Of a DNA stretch of 64,000 nucleotides, positions 1-40,162 are shown piece by piece (position 1 is the first letter of the stretch; every line of letters begins with the position of its first letter). The DNA is from Hymenobacter sp. PAMC 26628 (GTDB lineage: Bacteria > Bacteroidota > Bacteroidia > Cytophagales > Hymenobacteraceae). The DNA lies in contig NZ_CP014303.1 of assembly GCF_001562275.1 (NCBI RefSeq), positions 1-64,000 on the forward strand, written 5' to 3'. The notes under the pieces were generated by a model, which was given only the letters and a program-made list of their open reading frames with translations, ran no database searches and was not told the DNA's origin. A program made the position numbers and the translations under genes.

Positions 1-1
1 C

Positions 2-119
2 GTTATTGAAAAAATAACCGTGACAGCAATCCACCCGCTACACAAAGCGGTACTGGAAGAATGCTGTGAAAATGCGCTTGCTAATAAGCAAGGCGTTACC
101 GACGAGGCGACGCTATTAT
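2..119 (+). pseudogene. 5' part of an unidentified gene split by a 5-kb insertion
   Basis: The frame is open from the window edge, so the N-terminus lies outside. It runs in frame up to base 119, where the cassette at 120-5155 begins; read straight on, it stops inside the cassette end after a few foreign residues (WVLLNK). Joining base 119 to base 5162 restores one continuous frame that ends at 5316, giving a C-terminal portion of about 90 residues. The product has no motif I recognise. It is mixed helical with a short beta-like C-terminus (around YRGQTFTIPANS). The rejoined frame is direct sequence evidence of interruption; the function is unknown. Confidence 0.7.
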
Positions 120-320
120 GGGTGTTGTTAAACAAATAGTGCAAAACCTCCAACTCAGCTGGGCAACCGACTAAGTTTTATTGTTATCGTTTTAGTTGAT
201 AGGGTATTACCCGGTGAATTGGTCAAAATAATGGCCTTACCGTTTGTTTCGCCATTCCCTGCCGATGGACGCAAGGAGCGTGTAAAAGCAGCGTGTCTCG
301 CCACCCTTACCATGCATTTA

Positions 321-359
321 GGGGTGCTCTCAGAAAACGGAAAATATAGCACGTTAAGC
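321..359 (+). repeat. Inner terminal-like repeat, left copy
   Basis: Read inward it begins GGGGTGCTCTCAG and continues with AAAACGGAAAATATAGCACG. Its relatives at 4541-4577 and 4632-4669 lie in inverted orientation, so the cassette genes sit between a second, inner set of inverted ends. I see no matching short duplication next to it. The 140-500 interval otherwise holds no gene I can support. Confidence 0.55.
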
Positions 360-500
360 AGCACCCTACTTTACCAAAATCCACCCTTTTCTGACCTCTC
401 CAAGACATTGTAACCGAAAGGAGTGAACCAGCTGGTCCGCTCGTTTGCGGGCGGTATCACGTTGGTTCAATATCGTTTAGCACGAAAGCCTATTCCAGCG

Positions 501-920
501 CTAGGCCTGCTGGCGGAAGTGGGCTTGCAGCACGTCGTTCACCTTGTCCTTGTTCAGGGGCTTGCGCAGGAAGCCGGCCACGGGGAATTGCTGCAAGCGC
601 TCCATGTCCTGCGGGTGCATGGAGGTAGTCAGCATCACAATCACTATGGCCCCACGCTGGGATAAGGGCAGCTGCTGGTAGGCGCTCAAAAACTCGAACC
701 CATTCATCTGGGGCATGTTGATGTCGAGAAAGACGAGCGCGGGGCAGCTGCGGCTGGCTTCGGTGCACTGCGTTCGTAGCACTCGCAAGGCTTCTTCCCC
801 GTTGAGGGCCACCACCACCTGGTCGGTGACGTCAAGCTTTTCGAGTAGCTTGCGGTTGAGGTAGTTGGTGGTGTCGTCGTCGTCGACGAGGAGGGTGCAG
901 CGGAGCTTAGGAACGGACAT
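501..920 (-). CDS. Single-domain response regulator
   Basis: A 139-residue stand-alone receiver domain with no output domain. The acidic pocket is DDDD at residues 13-16, the phospho-acceptor is Asp66 in LDINMP, and the conserved Lys is K120 in RKPLNK. Its start lies 9 bp after the stop of the large PAS kinase at 930-4222, so the two form a kinase-regulator operon and this protein probably takes the phosphate from that kinase. Such stand-alone receivers pass the signal on by protein contact. The gene is cargo of the 120-5155 cassette. Confidence 0.9.
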   Translation of the reverse strand: MSVPKLRCTLLVDDDDTTNYLNRKLLEKLDVTDQVVVALNGEEALRVLRTQCTEASRSCPALVFLDINMPQMNGFEFLSAYQQLPLSQRGAIVIVMLTTSMHPQDMERLQQFPVAGFLRKPLNKDKVNDVLQAHFRQQA

Positions 921-929
921 GGTAGGGGA

Positions 930-3900
930 TTAGGGTCGGGGGAAATACACGGTGAAGGTGGAGCCTTCCCCGAGCGTGCTGTGTACTTCAATTCGGCCGC
1001 CGGTGTTTTCCACCATGCGCTTGACCATGTAGAGGCCGATGCCCGAGCCTTCCACGTGGGTGTGGTAGCGGCGGAACATGCCGAACAGCTCCGGCTCGCG
1101 CGTCAGGTCCAGTCCCAGGCCGTTGTCCTGCACCTCCAGCACGTGGTAGGCGCCTTCGTCCCGGCCCCGCACCTGCGCGAGGGGCACCCGGTCGGGGTGG
1201 CGGTACTTGAGAGCGTTGCTGAGCAGGTTGTAGACCACCGAGCGCAGGTTTTCACCGAGAACTGCACGGTGGGCACGGCGCGCACGTCGATGTCGAGCCG
1301 GCCGCCGGTTTGTTGCAGCAGCGGGGCCAGGTCCAGGCGCACGTCCTCGATGATGCCGGCCAGCGGCACCGGCTCGTGGGGCTGGTCGTGCTCTTTCTGC
1401 AGCCGGCTCACGTCGGTCAGGTGCTCGATGGTGCGGGTGAAGCGGTTCACCGAGTCCTGCATCAACTCCAGAATATAGGCAACCTCGCCGCCCGCTTCTA
1501 GCGGCGGCAGCTCGTCGCGCAGGGTGTCGAGCAGGCCTTCAATGTTGCTGATGGGCGCCTTGAGGTCGTGGCTGGCCGTGTAGATGAAGTTGTCCAGGTC
1601 CACGTTGGTGCGCGTGAGCTGGGTATTGGCCATGCGGAGCTGCTCGGCCAGGGCGCTGGCCTGCGCGCCGTCTTCTTCCACTACACGGCGCGCCTGCACC
1701 TGGTCGGTGACGTCGTGGGCGAAGACGCGCACGCCGTCGATGCGGCCGTGGGCGTCGCGGCGGGCTTGGTAGGTAAAGGTCCAGTAGATGTCCTCCGGGG
1801 GACGCCCCTCGTGGCGGGGCATGCGCAAGGGCAGCTCGTGCAGCGTGACCGGCTCGCCAGTCTGGTACACGCCCTGGAACAAATCCGGAATGGGGGTGCC
1901 GACGAGTTCGGGCAGGGCCTCGAGCAACGGCTTGTTGAGCAGGTCGCGACCGGGGAAAATGCGCTGGTAGGCCGGGTTAATCAATTGGAACACCAACTCG
2001 GGGCCGTCGAGGATGACGATGGGAGCCGGGGCCTGCATGAACAGCTCGTGCAGCTGCTGCCGCTCGGCGTCGCGCTCCTGGCGGGCCAGTACCTGCTCGG
2101 TGACGTCGTAGGCAAAAATGCTGATACCGACGACCGGCCCGTGTTCCCGGTAGGCCTGGTAGGTGAAGGTAAAGTAGGCCTGGCGGGGCAGGCGCCCGTC
2201 GGGCTGCGTGATGGCCAGCGGCAGCTCGTTGCCGAAGAAGGTCTCGCCCGTGCGGTACACGCCGTCGAGCAGGGCCACAAAGCCCTGGTCGGCGGCGTCG
2301 GGCAGGGCCTGGGCCAGGGTGTGGCCCACCAGCTCGCGCCCCGGAAAGAGGTCCTGGTAGGCCCGGTTGACGAATTCGAAGCGGTGCTCGGGTCCGCGCA
2401 GCAGGGCAATGCAGGCGGGCGTATGCTCGAAGACCTCGTGGAACGCCGCACGCTCCTGCGCCTGGCGCTCGGCGGCGGCCAGCAGCTCGGCCTGCAGGCG
2501 CTCGGCTCCCTGGCGGGCGCGCACCCGCTCGGTTGCGTCCAGCACGAACGCCTGCACGCCGGTCGTTTGGCCGTGCGCGTCGCGCAGGGGCTGGTACGTG
2601 AAATCCAGGTAGTGGGTGGTGGGCACGCCGCCGGGGGCCTGCAGCTCAATCGGCGTTTCGTGGCCCAGGTAAGGCTCGCCGGTGCGGTACACCCGGTCGA
2701 GCAAGTCGATGAAGCCCTGCCCGACAACTTCGGGCAGGCACTCGGCCACGCTCCGGCCGGGCACAGCGCGGTGGCCTGCCAGGGCGTCGTAGCCGGGGTT
2801 GGTGAAGGCGAAGCGGTGCTCGGGCCCGGTGAGGGCGGCTATCATGGCCGGGCTTTGCAGCAGCAGCTCGCGCAGCCGCCGGTCCTGCTGCTCCAGCGTG
2901 TGCTGGGCCTGCTGCAGGTCGTCGATGTCGAGGTTGGAGCCGAACCACTGGCGGGGCCGGCCGGCGGCTTCGGCCTCTTCGAGCGGCTCGGGCACGCCCT
3001 GGCTGGCAAACCAGCGGTACTGGCCCGCGGCCCCGCGTAGGCGGAATTCGTAGCGCCAGGGGCGGCCCTCGGCCAGGGCGGCGCCGAACTCGTGGGCAAT
3101 GGCGGGCAGGTCGTCGGGGTGGATGAGCGTGGGCCAGACCTTGTTGATGGGCGCATCGAGGGCCATGCCGGTGTAGGCGTACCACTGCGGGCTGATGTAG
3201 CGCACCTTCCCGCTTTGGTCGACGGTGAAACTGGTGCTGGGCAGGCTGTCGGTGACGTGCCGCAGGCGCTGGGTGGCGGTCACCGCTTCGGTCTGGGCGT
3301 GGCGCTGGGCCTGGGTGCGCTCGAACACGCGGGCCTCCAGCTCCTGGTTGAGCTGCTCGACCTGCCGGCGGGCCCCCACCTGCTCGCTCACTTCCACGGC
3401 CACCACCGTCACGCCCTCTACCTGGCCCTCGGCCCCGCGCAGGGGCTGGTAGACGAAGTTCCAGTACACGGTGTCGCGGCGGCCTTCCCGGTCAATGAGG
3501 CCGGGCATCTCGTGGGCCACGTAGGGGGTGCCGGTGGCCAGCACGCCGGCCAGCAGCTCCTCGAAACCCTGCCCGCTGATTTCCGGCAGCAGCTCGAACA
3601 AGGGCGTATGGAGGGCCTGGGCCGGGGTGCGGCCCCACATGCGCAGCACCTCCGGGTTGGCCAGCTCCACCACGTGGCGCGGCCCCCGAAACACGGCCAG
3701 CGCCACCGGGGCCTGCTCGAAGAGGCGCTCCAGCTCCCCGCGCTGGTGCTCGGCCTCGGCGCGAGCGGCGCGCTCGCGGGTCTGGCTTTCGCGTAGGGCG
3801 ACTTCTACGGCGGTGCGGGGCTGGTCGGCGGTGTCGGTGAAGCTGACGACGAGCAGGGCCTGGTGGCGCTGGGCGGCCAGGCGGAAGAAGTTGTCGAGGC

Positions 3901-4222
3901 CGTCAGCCTGATAGTTGACCTCGAAGGTTTCGGGCGTGCCGGCGGCGTAGGCGCGGCGGTAGAAGTCGAAGACGCCGGTGGCCACCATCTCCGGAAAGCG
4001 GGTCAGGGCCGTGGTGCCCGGCTGCTCGGGCAGGCCCGCCATGCGCTGGGCGGCGGGGTTGAGGTAGTCGAGGGTGAAGTCGACAATGTCGGAGCCATCG
4101 GGGCCGTACACCGGGCTGAGCAGGTTGACGGCCGAGAGCGAAACGGCCAGCAGCGTGGGCAGCAGGGCGTCGGGGAAGGCATATGGAGACGCGGGTGGGG
4201 CGGGTGGGGCGCCGGGAGCCAT
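930..4222 (-). CDS. Six-PAS hybrid-type sensor histidine kinase, one frameshift
   Basis: About 1,097 residues if repaired. The N-terminal three quarters hold six PAS-like sensor domains in a row, several with the repeating pattern 'gP.h.fe..N..y....G'. The dimerisation/phospho-acceptor motif follows (SHDLKAPISN, His near residue 885), then a HATPase domain (NLLSNALKY, DNGLGLD, GSGIGLYMVKRM). No membrane segment is evident, so it is probably cytosolic. The reading frame breaks at the A4/T4 run at 1249-1252: one extra base rejoins the phospho-acceptor half (ends at 1103 unrepaired) to the ATPase half. The length fits exactly one lost base. As printed, the protein would lack its ATPase and be dead; a sequencing error is equally possible. 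Confidence 0.85.
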
Positions 4223-4540
4223 AGGCGGGGATGGGGGGAAAGCCAGGAAGGGACAAGGTAAAGAAAGCGAGGCGCTTTAATTACCTAGAGAAAGGAGATA
4301 CGAAGGTTGAGCCTGCGTGGCGGTGCGCTCCAGAAAAAGCAGCGAGCAGGCCAGATGGTCCGCTCGCTGCGGTAAGAAAAGCGCTCGATTTTACCGGCTG
4401 CATGGTCAAATAAAATCAACTACAGCCTTACTAAGCCAATTTTTGTAGACTTGCCCGAATCAAGTTGGGATTCGTGGAGCCTCCTTTACCTCCCCCTTGC
4501 CTATGAGAAGCGGCGTGTAGGGAAGGCGCGATGTAGGACT

Positions 4541-4577
4541 GCTTAACGTGCTATATTTCCGTTTTGTGAGAGGGCCC
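4541..4577 (-). repeat. Inner terminal-like repeat, right copy A
   Basis: The minus strand reads GGGCCCTCTCACAAAACGG inward, matching the left copy at 321-359. The flanking interval 4223-4766 has no gene I can support; it holds this copy, copy B and probably the upstream region of both neighbouring genes. Confidence 0.55.
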
Positions 4578-4631
4578 AATAAAGGCCGTTTTGCTTCGCA
4601 CTAGTTTACCCGTGAGGAGCTGCCAAATATA

Positions 4632-4669
4632 GCTTAACATGCTATATTTCTGTTTGTTGAGAGGTTCCC
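4632..4669 (-). repeat. Inner terminal-like repeat, right copy B
   Basis: A third, more diverged copy in the same orientation as copy A and 91 bp away (minus strand GGGAACCTCTCAACAAACAG). Two tandem right ends suggest repeated insertion or deletion events inside the cassette. Confidence 0.5.
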
Positions 4670-4766
4670 TTGTTGAAGTTCGATTGCGCCTTCGGAGCAT
4701 CGAAAATCAGTCGCATTATCTCTTCTTTGATGTAATTGACTCTCTACCACCAGCCACTTATTAAGG

Positions 4767-5105
4767 ATGCTACCCGACGTTAAAAGCATTGCCAAACAAT
4801 ATGTCGCCCTGTCGAACGCGGTGAATTATAACGGCATGGCGGACCTTTTTGCGGAAGCGGCGGAGTGGATACCCATCTCCCCGATGGAACCGCGTACCGG
4901 CCGGGAAGCCATTCGTGCGGGCTATCTGGACCACGTGAAGAGTAAAAATCGGCCCATTGTTAATGCCCGCTATTATGCGGATGGTTTGACCTGTGTAGTC
5001 GAATTTGACGTGCAACTCGAAGCAGGGCAAATCGCGGCCATCGTGGACATTTTTACTTTCAACGAGCGGGGAGAAATTGTCCGGCTAGCTATCTATAAGC
5101 GATAA
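4767..5105 (+). CDS. SnoaL-like / NTF2-fold small protein
   Basis: 112 residues with the pattern of the SnoaL-like NTF2 fold: an N-terminal helix (VKSIAKQYVALSN), 'F.E.AEW', a middle segment GREAIRAGYLDHV, and a C-terminal sheet ending IFTFNERGEIVRLAIYKR. Family members bind or isomerise small molecules or act as stress-linked accessory proteins; the substrate cannot be read from sequence. It is the only plus-strand gene of the insertion cassette and ends 50 bp before the right terminus. It has its own upstream space and is transcribed divergently from the kinase operon. Confidence 0.75.
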   Translation: MLPDVKSIAKQYVALSNAVNYNGMADLFAEAAEWIPISPMEPRTGREAIRAGYLDHVKSKNRPIVNARYYADGLTCVVEFDVQLEAGQIAAIVDIFTFNERGEIVRLAIYKR

Positions 5106-5161
5106 GCATTCCGTTCCGAACCCGGCGGTTTTCCCTCATTTGTTTAACAACACCCTATTAT

Positions 5162-5316
5162 ACGCTGTTCAGGTAGCTTTCCTGTCGGCTTTACAAGTTA
5201 TGCAAGGTGTCCTGCGGGGGTCACTTGAAGCTGCGCAAGCAGACCATGTTACGCTGGAATATCGTGGGCAAACATTCACCATTCCAGCAAACTCAACTCT
5301 GTTGAGCCAAAACTGA
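5162..5316 (+). pseudogene. 3' part of the gene split by the cassette
   Basis: Continues the frame that breaks at base 119 without any indel once the cassette and one TATTAT copy are removed, and ends at a TGA at 5314-5316. The encoded end runs AVQVAFLSALQVMQGVLRGS and then YRGQTFTIPANS. There is no start codon of its own in a good position. The family is unknown. Confidence 0.7.
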
Positions 5317-5906: not shown

Positions 5907-6902
5907 CTATTTCTTCAGCTTGCGCGCCTTCAGGATATCGGAATTAGTCACGACGAAGGAGAGCTGCCGGCCCCCACCCTTCTCGAACATTTCGACTACC
6001 AGGTTCTTATCGTCGGGAATGGTGAATTTGTGCAGCGCGTATACCTGGTCTACCTGGCCCGGACCGGGGATAGTGGTTTGCTTGGCATTGTAGACGAATA
6101 CCGGCGTCAGCTCCGATTCCTGCAAGGCCGTGCGCTTGGCCACCTTCTTGTCGCGGATATAGAATTTAATGAAATCCACGTCGTAGCCGATGTTCGAGCT
6201 GTTGGCTAGGTGCAGTGGGAAGAAAAACATATCATCTTGTGTGTAAAGCCCCTGCATGGCTAAGGTGATGTTATCCTTGACCTCGTGCACGTGGGGCCCT
6301 TTGCGCTTTTCCAGCACCTCTTTTGAGTAGTCCTCCAGGTCGCTCTGCGTCACGCTGGAGTTGGAGAGGTGGGCTAGCGGCACCACGGCCGAGGAAGTCG
6401 AAACGTCGGTGGCCGCCAGGTTGTAGTTCAGCACCCGGGGGTTGGCATCGTAGTCCACAATGAAGGAATACAGGCGGCCATCGGTCGTTACCACCGTCAT
6501 GTTGGTTTGGGGAAAGCCCTGTTGGCTGGCTTTCACCTTCACGATGTTTTCCGCGCCCTGGGCCTTGTCGGCAATGATGCCACCATTGCCCAGGTCCACA
6601 TACGACACGGCGTAAGGGAAAATCAGGTGGGTAGTCTTCTGGAAACCAACCGTCATGCGGTAGGAACCGATGTAGTTCTGTTCTTGGAGGGCCAGGATTT
6701 TTTGCGTCGAGACGGGCGCAGCTGCCGTGAGGTAGGTCGCGTTGGCCACATGCAGCGGGCCAGCGCCCAGGAAGCCGTTGGCGTTGCTAGCGGCTACCTG
6801 GCTAGCGGCGGTACGATGCCGGCGGTGGGTATACTTTTGAGCAGCGGCGGGCAGCGTGAGCGTGGCCAGGCCGAGGCAAGCGAGGACGAGGGACGTTTTC
6901 AT
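5907..6902 (-). CDS. traN: Conjugative transfer protein TraN (VirB9-like)
   Basis: 331 residues with a clear signal peptide (MKTSLVLACLGLATLTLPAAAQ), matching the outer-membrane TraN proteins of Bacteroidota conjugative elements, which with TraM form the outer part of the type IV secretion channel. Beta-rich segments follow, such as YRMTVGFQKTTHLIFPYAV and VDFIKFYIRDKKVAKRTA, typical of VirB9/CagX-like domains. The start codon overlaps the traM stop (ATGA), showing translational coupling. It is the last gene of the operon before the terminator. Confidence 0.88.
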   Translation of the reverse strand: MKTSLVLACLGLATLTLPAAAQKYTHRRHRTAASQVAASNANGFLGAGPLHVANATYLTAAAPVSTQKILALQEQNYIGSYRMTVGFQKTTHLIFPYAVSYVDLGNGGIIADKAQGAENIVKVKASQQGFPQTNMTVVTTDGRLYSFIVDYDANPRVLNYNLAATDVSTSSAVVPLAHLSNSSVTQSDLEDYSKEVLEKRKGPHVHEVKDNITLAMQGLYTQDDMFFFPLHLANSSNIGYDVDFIKFYIRDKKVAKRTALQESELTPVFVYNAKQTTIPGPGQVDQVYALHKFTIPDDKNLVVEMFEKGGGRQLSFVVTNSDILKARKLKK

Positions 6903-8185
6903 GATTTGAGCAGAAGCTGATAATTGGCTTTGAGGTGAATTTTCACCGTCTTAATCTTGCGGCCGGTCAGGGCCTTACCGGTTTGAATGGCGATGCCGGC
7001 CGCCTGCGCGCCCAGGCTGGGCGACATGGTGAGCATATCGGCCCCGCTTACCCCCTGCGCGGCCCCTTGCTTGATGGCGTCGCGGTCGATGGAGCCTGGA
7101 ATGTTGAGCCCCTCTCCCCCATCGATATCAAATGCCTTGAGGCTAACGGGGAGCAGGTTGCCCTGATACTGCACCGACGTAGCCGCGATGCTTAGGCGGT
7201 TGCCGCTCATACTGCATACCCCGTAGAGAAAGCTGTTGCGCGGAATCAGGTGCCCCTCCAGCTGCACATCTTGCAGCAGGCGCAGCTTCACCGTCGAGCC
7301 GGCCTCTACTACCTGGTCGTTGTGCACCACGGCCGGCACCGAGTTGACGTTGCTGCTGGGGCTCGACTCCCCGACCGTGTGAAAACCGTTAGCCGGGGGC
7401 GCGGGCTGGGTGCGCAGGCTGCTCACAACCGTGGGGCGCACCTGGGTGATAACCGTCATGCCCTTTTTGGGCGCGCTGCTGGCGGGTGGGGCCACCGCAG
7501 CGGCAGCCGTGGCCGGCGCGTTCATGCCCAGCAGGCGCTGCTGGTACTGATTCTTGAGCTGGTCGAGTTCCTTTAGCGACTCATCCATGCGCGTATCACG
7601 GGGCGAGCTGGCTACCGCGGCCGGGCGTGCGCTGCTGGCGGCCGGCGTCGAGGCGAGGGCAGCGTAGGTAGGCTGAGCGCAGGCGGGCTGGGTGCTGGTT
7701 TGCTCCTGAAGGCGCTGCATCCGGGTTTGCATAGCTACCACGTTCGGGTCGGCGTTGGGGTCGTAGCGCCCAGCCGTTTGGCCCGGTTGCACGGCGTAGT
7801 TGAGGCCGGCCGGCTGGCCACCGGCCGGGGCGGCCCCGGCGGCCGTTGCTGGCGACGTGGCCCCTAGCGCACCTGGTGCAGCGCCGGCCGCTGGGGCCGA
7901 CGTGCTCGGGGGTGGCGCGAAGGCCAGGCCGTTGCGGTGGCTGCTGTCCTGCGGCGCGTTGGCGGCTTCCATCTTATCGGCAAACAGGGCCGACTTGCCG
8001 GCGGAGGGTAGCGTGTGGTTGATGCCACTGGCGGGGGCGTTGGGGCCCGCAGTGGCCGCCGTGACGCCTTTCCCGCCGCCGCCCAGGTAGAAGAGAACGG
8101 TCAGGCAGATTACCCCAGGAACGGGGATGAACAGCATCATTCGACGCTTATTCAGGTACTCTTGCGTGTGCTTGGGCTTGTTCAT
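6899..8185 (-). CDS. traM: Conjugative transfer protein TraM (VirB10-like)
   Basis: 428 residues starting MNKPKHTQEYLNKRRMMLF; a longer frame upstream (to 8389) overlaps traK and lacks a sensible start. One membrane helix follows at about residues 18-35, then a long Ala/Pro-rich periplasm-spanning stretch, then a C-terminal beta domain (TVKLRLLQDVQLEGHLIPRN; YQGNLLPVSLKAFDIDGGEG) characteristic of Bacteroidota TraM, the VirB10-like core channel protein bridging both membranes. It lies 35 bp after traK and overlaps traN by 4 bp. Confidence 0.9.
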   Translation of the reverse strand: MNKPKHTQEYLNKRRMMLFIPVPGVICLTVLFYLGGGGKGVTAATAGPNAPASGINHTLPSAGKSALFADKMEAANAPQDSSHRNGLAFAPPPSTSAPAAGAAPGALGATSPATAAGAAPAGGQPAGLNYAVQPGQTAGRYDPNADPNVVAMQTRMQRLQEQTSTQPACAQPTYAALASTPAASSARPAAVASSPRDTRMDESLKELDQLKNQYQQRLLGMNAPATAAAAVAPPASSAPKKGMTVITQVRPTVVSSLRTQPAPPANGFHTVGESSPSSNVNSVPAVVHNDQVVEAGSTVKLRLLQDVQLEGHLIPRNSFLYGVCSMSGNRLSIAATSVQYQGNLLPVSLKAFDIDGGEGLNIPGSIDRDAIKQGAAQGVSGADMLTMSPSLGAQAAGIAIQTGKALTGRKIKTVKIHLKANYQLLLKS

Positions 8186-8220
8186 AGGGGGATAGGATAA
8201 GGCGGGTGGTCGGCGAGGGG

Positions 8221-8838
8221 CTAGCGGGGCTGGGTGCTGAGGTCGAGGTTTTGCAGCACGCGCCAGCGCTCCATCAGAAAGCCGTGCGGGTTGTTGCTCG
8301 ACCGCGAAACGTCGCGCAGGTAGCACTCGGAAACCAGGTTGCGGGTCGTCACGCTGGAGGAGCGGATAATCTGCTCCGTAGCATAGCACTTTGCGTAGTA
8401 GGGGTAGGTCGCGGGGTTGAGCGTGACGCTGTCCACCGTGATGTGCTGGCTGATGTTGGCCTGAATCAGGTTGTTGTAGTAGCCGCTTTCCTTGAAGTTG
8501 TCGTACTCGCGCTTGGCGCTTTCATCGGCCAGAAACAGGGCCTGCGTGACGTTGTGCTCGATGGCCTTGGCGTCGGGGTCGAGGGTGAAAAAGAACTCGT
8601 GGAAACGCTTCACGTGGTCCTGCGCCTCCACCGGGCGATTATCCTTCACGTTGTGAGAAACGGCTTCGAGCAGGTTGCCCTGGTCGAGCACGTAGATGCG
8701 GCCCTGGGCATCGCGAATCGAGCGCTGGGAGGCGTACACCGCGTAGCCCGTCACGAAGGCGCACAGTACCATAAAAAGCAGGGCCAGCGTTTTTGTCTGC
8801 TGGTAGGCGGAATCGATGTTTTTGAGGGAGCGAAACAT
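8221..8838 (-). CDS. traK: Conjugative transfer protein TraK (VirB8-like)
   Basis: 205 residues: short cytosolic N-terminus (MFRSLKNIDSAYQQTKTLA), a membrane helix at about 18-36, then a soluble periplasmic domain of NTF2-like VirB8 type (HVKRFHEFFFTLDPDAKAIE is diagnostic of Bacteroidota TraK). It links inner-membrane parts to the TraM/TraN channel. It sits between traJ (26 bp upstream) and traM. No TraL-like gene is present in the 35-bp gap where some relatives have one. Confidence 0.9.
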   Translation of the reverse strand: MFRSLKNIDSAYQQTKTLALLFMVLCAFVTGYAVYASQRSIRDAQGRIYVLDQGNLLEAVSHNVKDNRPVEAQDHVKRFHEFFFTLDPDAKAIEHNVTQALFLADESAKREYDNFKESGYYNNLIQANISQHITVDSVTLNPATYPYYAKCYATEQIIRSSSVTTRNLVSECYLRDVSRSSNNPHGFLMERWRVLQNLDLSTQPR

Positions 8839-8864
8839 GGAATAGAGCGTTTGGGATGAGAAGC

Positions 8865-9959
8865 TTAGGCCGCTTTATTGGTGTTCTGGTAGCCATTGCC
8901 ACCCTGACCACTGCCCGACTGCTGGTTGTTCTGGCCGCCGCCGAACACGGTCCGCCCGGCTGCCATGGCCCGCCCGGCGATTTGGCCCGCCCCGGCGCCG
9001 GCCGCGCCAGCCGCCATGCTGCCGGCCGCGCCCCCGGCATTGCTGGCAAAGCGGGTGATGTTGGTCAGGCCGCTAGCCGAGACAATCCAGCTCGACACCG
9101 AAGGCACCGTGAAGTAGCCGGCAATGGCAATCACGAGGAAAATCATGTAGCCGTAATCAGCCTTTTCCAGGTCACCATTGGCCTGAATCTGGGCGATGTC
9201 GAGGTTGAGCATCATCACCTGAATTTTGGCAATGATGGCCCCGAAGATGTTGGCCACCGGCAGCCACAAGAACACGTTGACGTAGCGCGAAAACCAGTTG
9301 GTCAGCGTGCTCTCGAAGCCAGGCCAGATGGCAAAGCCGAAGCTGATGGGGCCGATGATGCTCAGGATGATGAGGAAGAAGGTGCGGATGGTGTTTATCA
9401 CCAGCGCAGCCGAGTCGTGGGCCAGCTCCAGCACGTTGCGAATCCACTCCCGGAAATTCTTCTGCACGTTGTAGCTCATGCGGTCAAAGTAGAGCGAGGC
9501 CTTGCCGCCAAAGTCGAGGACATCCTTGCTCTCCAGTTCCTTGTCGAATGCGTCGTTATCTTCATAAGGGGCATTTTCGGGCCGGGCCGCGAGCAGGGCC
9601 GCCTTGCGGGCCTGCAACTGAATAATGTCCTGATTTTGCGTCAGAACGATGGACGAGGTCGCGCTTGAAATACCTCCCAGCACGCCGTTCAGGATGCCCA
9701 GCATCGAGGGGAAAAGGGTAATCGCCAGGCCGATGGCGAAGGGGCGCAGCAGCGGAAAAAACTCGATGGGCTCGGCCGCGGCCTGGTGGCGCCACACCTT
9801 GCTGGCGATGTAAATCAGCGCGCCCAGCCCGCCCAAGGCGCGGCCCACGTTCACGAGGTCGGCGCACAGGGGCAGCATCTCGTTGTAGAGGTTGTCGAGC
9901 AATTCTTGCAGCGACTTGACCGGAATGGAAACTTGGAGGAGGAAAGTAAGGAGCGTCAT
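8865..9959 (-). CDS. traJ: Conjugative transfer protein TraJ (VirB6/TrbL-like)
   Basis: 364 residues with several membrane helices (about 40-55, 68-90, 185-215, 225-250, 268-290) and a Gly/Ala/Gln-rich C-terminal tail. The segment SFGFAIWPGFESTLTNWFSR is typical of Bacteroidota TraJ, the inner-membrane channel component. It follows three TraI-like genes at a 5-bp spacing and precedes traK, the expected order. The low-complexity tail (about residues 305-364) is probably cytosolic. Confidence 0.9.
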   Translation of the reverse strand: MTLLTFLLQVSIPVKSLQELLDNLYNEMLPLCADLVNVGRALGGLGALIYIASKVWRHQAAAEPIEFFPLLRPFAIGLAITLFPSMLGILNGVLGGISSATSSIVLTQNQDIIQLQARKAALLAARPENAPYEDNDAFDKELESKDVLDFGGKASLYFDRMSYNVQKNFREWIRNVLELAHDSAALVINTIRTFFLIILSIIGPISFGFAIWPGFESTLTNWFSRYVNVFLWLPVANIFGAIIAKIQVMMLNLDIAQIQANGDLEKADYGYMIFLVIAIAGYFTVPSVSSWIVSASGLTNITRFASNAGGAAGSMAAGAAGAGAGQIAGRAMAAGRTVFGGGQNNQQSGSGQGGNGYQNTNKAA

Positions 9960-40125: not shown

Positions 40126-40162
40126 GGGTGTTGTTCAACAAAGAGGGGGAAACCTCCGACTC
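40126..40162 (+). repeat. Solitary copy of the cassette terminus
   Basis: GGGTGTTGTTCAACAAAGAG followed by a match to GAAACCTCCGACTC, close to the cassette ends at 120 and 5155. No inverted partner was found in the window. Immediately to the right, a short open stretch to 40281 (YMQDFDVEVLRSESTR) may be the tail of an interrupted gene. Confidence 0.65.

Follow-up and report, generated by a model that had tools for sequence, protein, structure and literature searches.

A probable transposase-less Tn3-family cassette with sensory genes in Hymenobacter, bearing ends of two Tn3 families

Introduction

The term mobile insertion cassette (MIC) was used early for MIC231 of Bacillus cereus, a gene cassette that has the ends of a mobile element and no transposase; the ends in question are those of IS231 (IS4 family), not of Tn3. 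Two-component systems are known from Tn3-family elements, as in Tn1546 with VanRS, which encodes its own transposase and resolvase. The locus described here lies at positions 120–5155 of the window, by which is meant the whole stretch of DNA analysed (the first 64,000 nucleotides, forward strand, of contig NZ_CP014303.1 of Hymenobacter sp. PAMC 26628, assembly GCF_001562275.1). It resembles Tn1546 in joining a two-component system to Tn3-type ends, and differs from it in having no transposase of its own. It is very probably a non-autonomous Tn3-family element, a MIC built like the composites called TIME-COMPs, and it is a mosaic of two families of Tn3-type ends, here termed A (outer) and B (inner).

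Transposase-less Tn3 cassettes are an established class. TIME-COMPs are mobilised by a Tn3 transposase provided in trans, and the direct repeats that result measure 5 bp or, in some cases, 6 bp (Szuplewska, 2014, PMC4133298; Gomi and Yano, 2026, PMC13367494). The miniature elements (TIMEs) and composites described there have, like the present element, Tn3-type ends, no transposase, miniature elements of ~250 bp and AT-rich duplications of 5 or 6 bp; the composites move DNA between two miniature copies, and some miniature elements contain a putative resolution site (PMC4133298; PMC13367494). The systems of those papers come from Pseudomonas and Enterobacteriaceae, whereas the Hymenobacter elements have other ends, of which 16 pairings are flanked by exact duplications of 6 bp. 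Unlike the TIME-COMPs there described, the present element encloses ends that belong to another Tn3 family, its second miniature copy is reduced to a weak remnant, and its cargo is a sensor system.

Tn3-family MICs of the TnXax1 group in Xanthomonas likewise carry passenger genes without a transposition enzyme (PMC6304161, citing Ferreira, 2015). Long Tn3 inverted repeats flank the passengers there, as they do here, and the cassettes depend on a related transposon; their cargo, however, consists of effector genes, whereas the Hymenobacter cassettes hold signalling and metabolic genes, two interleaved end families occur, and the genus is another (PMC6304161). A literature search for Hymenobacter together with Tn3 family transposon or miniature inverted-repeat found no paper, most subscription journals lying outside its coverage. 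What is new is the genus, the interleaving of two Tn3 families and the sensor cargo; the kind of cassette is already known.

Termini, target duplication and interrupted gene

The outer terminal repeats read GGGTGTTGTTAAACAAAT at 120–137 and its complement at 5138–5155 (18/18 identical), and over 32 nt the two arms are 84% complementary. They delimit an element of 5036 bp, outside which lie the 6-bp direct repeats TATTAT (Table 1), a feature also expected of a TIME-COMP, in which 5- or 6-bp repeats adjoin the outermost ends. When 120–5161 is removed and one TATTAT is kept, a single open frame of 99 codons is restored; with the insert in place the frame terminates after a few codons. This count takes the contig (C1; 89,596 bp, its first base being base 1 of the window) as circular, because the frame is continuous across the contig end, and places the start 26 nt before that end.

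Searched against 120 genomes of the genus, the rejoined 99-aa protein has a stop-free homologue in genome G053, another species (61% identity over residues 1–97), the alignment of which crosses the junction without a gap. Base 139 is therefore not the natural end of the interrupted gene. G116 holds a relative in decay (34%, three stops). A tblastn search of plasmids with the rejoined gene gave no match, and a DUF2642 hit fell under the Pfam cut-off and is not claimed. The notion that the repeats are coincidental, the flanking gene ending naturally and the block being ordinary plasmid sequence, draws on the rarity of the gene, which is matched in 3/120 genomes with its own counted. It has a practically negligible chance of being right, since a natural end of the flanking gene is refuted by the homologue running through the junction, the duplication is 6 bp long, and the same ends recur genus-wide.

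No transposase was recognised within 120–5155 in the list of open reading frames (ORFs) or by Pfam on the main ORFs, and when the element was queried by tblastn with two Tn3 transposases, one A-type and one B-type, nothing matched at E<=10. The initial annotation, which had set the boundaries to the base and described the insert as a mobile cassette without transposase in a split gene, was right in essence: its ends, duplication and restored frame hold, an uninterrupted homologue in the genus spans the junction, and neither homologues ending at base 139 nor an internal transposase came to light. To this can now be added the Tn3-family nature of the ends, the two-family mosaic, a kinase frame broken as sequenced, and the inner inverted repeats at 321–358, 4542–4577 and 4632–4669.

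Table 1. Features of the cassette and of the gene it interrupts (window coordinates).
Feature	Position	Strand	Basis or remark
5' part of interrupted gene	1..119	+	start 26 nt earlier, at C1 end, if C1 is circular; frame joins 5162-5316
Left copy of target duplication TATTAT, 6 bp	114..119		
Left terminal repeat, family A (Tn3 type)	120..156	+	35/37 vs family consensus
Left arm, a miniature A element (TIME) of ~274 bp in truncated form, with resolution-site-like region	120..320	+	held-out profile, shuffles
Left inner end, family B (38-bp terminal repeat of Tn3 type)	321..358	+	matches in three plasmids
Single-domain response regulator	501..920	-	Pfam Response_reg E=3.9e-16
HATPase domain of kinase, frame differing from the rest	930..1238	-	Pfam HATPase_c E=6e-21; frames and homologues
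Multi-PAS histidine kinase, frameshifted ahead of ATPase domain	1103..4222	-	Pfam PAS_4 x4, PAS x2, HisKA
Inner right terminal repeat R1, family B	4542..4577	-	
Second B-type end R2, oriented like R1	4632..4669	-	
Possible remnant of second, inverted miniature A element	4674..4718	-	profile E=2
SnoaL-like protein, 112 aa	4767..5105	+	Pfam SnoaL_2 E=6e-9; 83% DNA relative in G083
Right terminal repeat, family A	5119..5155	-	31/37 vs family consensus
Right copy of target duplication TATTAT	5156..5161		
3' part of interrupted gene	5162..5316	+	frame continuity and G053 homologue

Parent transposon of the A ends

The A end recurs elsewhere in the host genome (G000). Its 22-nt form, with at most one mismatch, is present in 63/120 genus genomes, the reversed control in none of the 120; an order-wide draw yielded it in 25/390, two of these outside the genus (G209 and G410, one match each), and one match for the reversed control. 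The larger A elements have a core of 3951–3960 bp that encodes a transposase of 1029–1034 aa and a resolvase, identified by Pfam on one such element as PF01526 and PF13700 (transposase) and PF00239 (resolvase). The initial annotation had looked to insertion sequence (IS) elements for the same termini; the element found to share them is this parent Tn3-family transposon, IS ends as such not having been searched.

Matches of any similarity to the A transposase occur in 78/120 genus genomes, and full-length, stop-free genes amount to 14 copies in 12 genomes at 92–100% identity, the query's own genome counted. The host genome contains four pieces of the gene, two of them with a stop, and a relic of the parent transposon (C2:4998793-5002738; L032:5793-9738) in which a pair of A ends encloses a broken Tn3-type transposase and a resolvase, without a flanking duplication.

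Inward-facing A ends were sought in 64 loci and gave 73 pairings, some nested or overlapping. An exact 6-bp duplication flanks 16 of the 73, 5 bp are duplicated in two (a single repeated unit in G092) and 3 bp in one, and 54 have none; by comparison, 5206 mispaired flanks showed a 6-bp duplication 10 times and a 5-bp one 14 times. Among the 16 are three transposase-bearing copies of ~3960 bp in G083, the transposase gene being split in two in one of them, and larger transposons (6.9, 13.5 and 17.3 kb). The window element (5036 bp) and a 1141-bp sibling described below also belong here, and the remaining eight are miniature elements of 272–449 bp. The 17.3-kb transposon, in G003, bears a transposase as well as cargo.

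Several further arrangements of A ends were observed. The 13.5-kb transposase-bearing element, flanked by a 6-bp duplication (G043, L053:982-14522), carries a peptidase-C39 ABC exporter with neighbouring genes and has a third A end inside. Another transposase-bearing element, of 7.98 kb and without target duplication (G027, L050:993-8974), holds genes for a 391-aa protein and an outer-membrane beta-barrel. Three 69-bp palindromes of two facing A ends lie ~2.3 kb apart in the host genome (L035; C2:5053598-5053666, 5055918-5055986 and 5058297-5058365), with no duplication. Within the window a lone A-type end (34/37) at 40126–40162 has no recognisable partner.

Sibling cassettes

The initial reading had proposed looking for cassettes that combine these ends with other cargo; such cassettes exist, and one of them, of 1141 bp, lies in the same genome. 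Ten gene-bearing, transposase-less A elements were examined (5036, 1141, 2189, 850 twice, 921 twice, 1890, 2336 and 2102 bp). The cargo of the siblings includes an NmrA-like dehydrogenase, a zinc alcohol dehydrogenase (ADH), a YdcZ exporter, a protein without Pfam match and an aldo/keto reductase, as well as a secreted protein that bears a Por tail, and an AraC regulator together with a flavodoxin-like reductase. Two of these cassettes occur in two species each: the 850-bp YdcZ cassette is 100% identical between G028 and G044, and the 921-bp cassette is 95.6% identical between G044 and G119. Both matches stop at the repeats, give or take one base, and beyond them the flanks are different.

The 1141-bp sibling (C2:4261775-4262915; L030:11775-12915) is transposase-less, carries the NmrA-like gene and is flanked by the 6-bp duplication ACTTTT. 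Its target was compared with 31 other places in 28 genomes, in which the downstream flank is at least 85% identical over at least 379 of 401 bases; a partial match in G106 (87% over 226 bases) and all places at or below 78% were excluded. In 26/31 of these orthologous places the target is uninterrupted and has a single copy of the 6 bp, and one more is off by one base; three of the uninterrupted positions are extrapolated from alignments that end up to 36 nt short. Among these 27 places, three have another composite ~34 bp upstream, and in 24 the ~3 kb retrieved is free of A and B ends.

Left arm and inner ends

Thirty-one miniature A elements of 225–286 bp align end to end, and the left arm of the window element (120–320) aligns with their first ~200 bp, the alignment stopping where the B end starts. 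The interior of the arm scores 155, against 40 ± 7 (maximum 58) in 200 shuffles. A profile built from 30 miniature interiors, with the window excluded, matches 162–319 at E=1.1e-20, the best hit in a reversed database having E=3.4. The same profile matches the tnpR-tnpA intergenic region of transposase-bearing A elements (E 5e-10 to 1e-18), and because of this the miniature elements and the left arm look as though they carry a resolution site. On the right, the possible inverted remnant scores 38, against at most 33 in 20 shuffles. Of the two miniature copies that bound a TIME-COMP, the left is clear though truncated, and the right is a weak, possible inverted remnant with indirect support from a fragment in G083 (see below).

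The left arm also bears on whether the element could be an autonomous A transposon that has decayed, its tnpR and tnpA having given way to kinase, regulator and SnoaL genes. Such a transposon would have the same outer ends, and cargo-carrying, transposase-bearing copies with 6-bp duplications do exist (13.5 kb in G043, 17.3 kb in G003), but neither transposase has left a trace detectable by tblastn, and the left arm, read inwards from its end, keeps register with the miniature element. This origin is very improbable, and a deletion derivative of the autonomous transposon is rejected on the match of the arm to the miniature element.

The inner end at 321, GGGGTGCTCTCAGAAAACGGAAAATATAGCACGTTAAG, which resembles the end of Tn21, matches three plasmids over 44–49 bases at 88–93%; in a Providencia plasmid an annotated Tn3 family transposase gene lies under the match. 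The B ends of the window face inward as a pair (321–4577), and R2 sits 91 bp beyond R1. Elsewhere in the genus, B-ended elements carry genes without a transposase, and 4/10 pairs outside the window are flanked by a 5-bp duplication, compared with 1/110 mispairings. The four duplication-flanked elements hold, respectively, a gene for a 214-aa protein, an erythromycin-esterase-like protein, a TonB receptor and MFS pair, and a zinc dehydrogenase. In G058 a B end adjoins a Tn3 transposase gene; in the host genome, a search with the B-type transposase matched only the place of the broken A transposase.

These B-ended carriers and the inward pairing would accord with a simple nesting, in which a B-type MIC with kinase and regulator (321–4577) entered a ready-made A-type SnoaL cassette and nothing was rearranged later. 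However, the flanks of the window pair do not match (ATTTA on the left, AATAA on the right), nothing was found on the right side that would carry the miniature element on past ATTTA as expected, and a second B end stands beyond the first. Nesting of this simple kind is accordingly judged unlikely. Alignments of the inner flanks (361–700, 4227–4537 and 4578–4631) with the interiors of B elements were no better than shuffles.

Cargo

The sensory cargo named in the initial annotation is confirmed as to its components, a receiver, a kinase and a SnoaL-like protein, but an intact kinase–regulator pair is not, the kinase being split by a frameshift. Where six PAS domains had been stated, Pfam reports four PAS_4 and two PAS stretches, and the kinase is here called multi-PAS. 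The kinase is read as frameshifted as sequenced because its HATPase domain lies in another frame and its DNA homologues align across the frame-change stretch with small gaps; the frameshift (930–4222) may reflect genuine decay or an error in the sequence. Expression of the SnoaL gene and of the regulator would still be possible; the kinase reads as broken.

The two arms have GC contents of 45% and 49%, and the kinase/regulator block 68.5%. No near-identical copy of this block was found among the genus genomes. Its best matches by E-value are in G095 (75% and 79%) and G097 (78%), and a match in G089 reaches 83% over 445 bases. Five loci from this search (L148-L152) have no B ends, in a scan for ends of that type. 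A search of plasmid DNA returned 43 records, of which those covering at least 4% of the query are kinase or regulator relatives at 64–73%; five records at 80–95% are short matches, two to the A end and three to the inner B end.

For the SnoaL gene, the DNA search of the genus gave one relative, at 83%, in G083, another species, and a protein search of genome contigs gave 44 stretches matched by pattern, of which 0 were confirmed. The G083 relative is preceded by a fragment of a miniature element (profile E=4e-6).

Nature and assembly of the element

The element combines Tn3-family terminal inverted repeats, passenger genes and a target duplication in an interrupted gene with the lack of any transposition enzyme, and its cognate transposase is open in the 14 copies counted above and broken in the host; these are the features of a MIC. 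It has no tnpA of its own, as an autonomous Tn3-family transposon would. The inner part, taken as a B-type Tn3 element, has paired inward ends and lacks the 5-bp duplication.

Several observations weigh against this assignment. Near-identical copies of the main parts (359–4541 and 4223–5155) are absent from the 120 genus genomes, so that the case for movement of this very unit rests on the ends, the duplication and the empty site. A 6-bp duplication flanks only 2/10 of the gene-bearing transposase-less A elements examined, namely the window element and the 1141-bp sibling. The left arm is 45–70% identical to single miniature elements (34–65% without the terminal repeat), and the right remnant at 4674–4718 is weak by itself (profile E=2). 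The inner B pair has the unmatched flanks already mentioned. The A-like ends around the SnoaL relative in G083 are poor (right 22/37, left 18/37), the left one being no better than chance sites nearby in the same stretch. Finally, both 850-bp copies are on small contigs, of 4.4 and 5.0 kb, where contamination or misassembly is possible, and the last 70 bases of the G028 contig (C19; L051, 4440 bp) are the reverse complement of the stretch beside the cassette. This contig end is likely an assembly fold-back, and the true right flank may be hidden.

For the mobile-cassette reading, the following course may be envisaged. A SnoaL gene would have been captured between A-type ends; a B-type element with kinase and regulator would then have entered this A carrier; a rearrangement between B-type ends would have left the mismatched B flanks; and the mosaic would finally have moved as a whole by way of its A ends. 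The SnoaL gene is taken as the earlier A cargo, and the kinase and regulator as having come with the B ends, because of the G083 relative beside a miniature fragment and the anatomy of the B ends. Since the inner B ends lack a matching 5-bp duplication, the order of nesting is only inferred. In the last step, by analogy with TIME-COMPs, an A-type transposase acting in trans would have joined the outer ends to an AT-rich target, so that replicative transposition placed the entire 5036-bp unit in the plasmid gene; the cointegrate could have been resolved either by the A resolvase at the putative site in the left arm or by RecA. The element should now be immobile in its host, short of an intact A transposase arriving on a related plasmid.

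Composites with both types of end

The intergenic site of the 1141-bp sibling, upstream of an NtrC-type regulator gene, is occupied by a different composite in 7/31 other places (L158, L159, L165, L180, L182, L183 and L184). In L159, L182, L183 and L184 the cargo is framed by two inverted units of ~120 bp, whose B ends lie on the outside and whose A ends are turned inwards to the cargo. The genes enclosed differ and code for a DNA methylase, accompanied by an unnamed partner, for a GNAT acetyltransferase, and for two proteins that gave no Pfam match. In L158, L165 and L180 the left unit alone is found, in L165 shortened and without its A end, and an S41-peptidase gene adjoins it (by Pfam in L158; L165 and L180 are alike by eye). 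Three of the composites are at one spot and four ~40 bp upstream. The combination of A and B ends is thus, these composites suggest, not peculiar to the window, and the site upstream of the NtrC-type gene is a possible hot spot with exchange of cargo. The order of nesting is reversed in the two settings, A lying outside B in the window and B outside, with cargo-facing A ends, at the NtrC site.

A broader reading, put forward tentatively and somewhat less likely to hold than to fail, is that Hymenobacter runs an interlocking gene-capture network from two Tn3 families, in which transposase-less carriers have both ends, nested either way. If so, either transposase could mobilise one cargo, and cargo could be exchanged while the shell around it stayed conserved, which would amount to an integron-like cassette economy without an integrase, the sensor module of the window being one of its loads. 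Two-family nesting could be a concrete way for one cargo to become movable by two enzymes.

The findings indicate that the strategy of borrowed ends, known from resistance and virulence genes of Proteobacteria, also operates in an environmental genus of Bacteroidota, where the cassettes carry signalling, metabolic and DNA-modification genes. Because they carry no transposase, such cassettes tend to escape standard annotation; the sequences of the ends and of the miniature elements would let them be found.

Neighbouring genes

The region adjoining the cassette (5907–9959 of the window) contains conjugation genes (TraM, TraJ and a DUF4138 protein) of the type found in conjugative transposons of Bacteroidota, and because of this neighbourhood the carrier contig may be self-transmissible.

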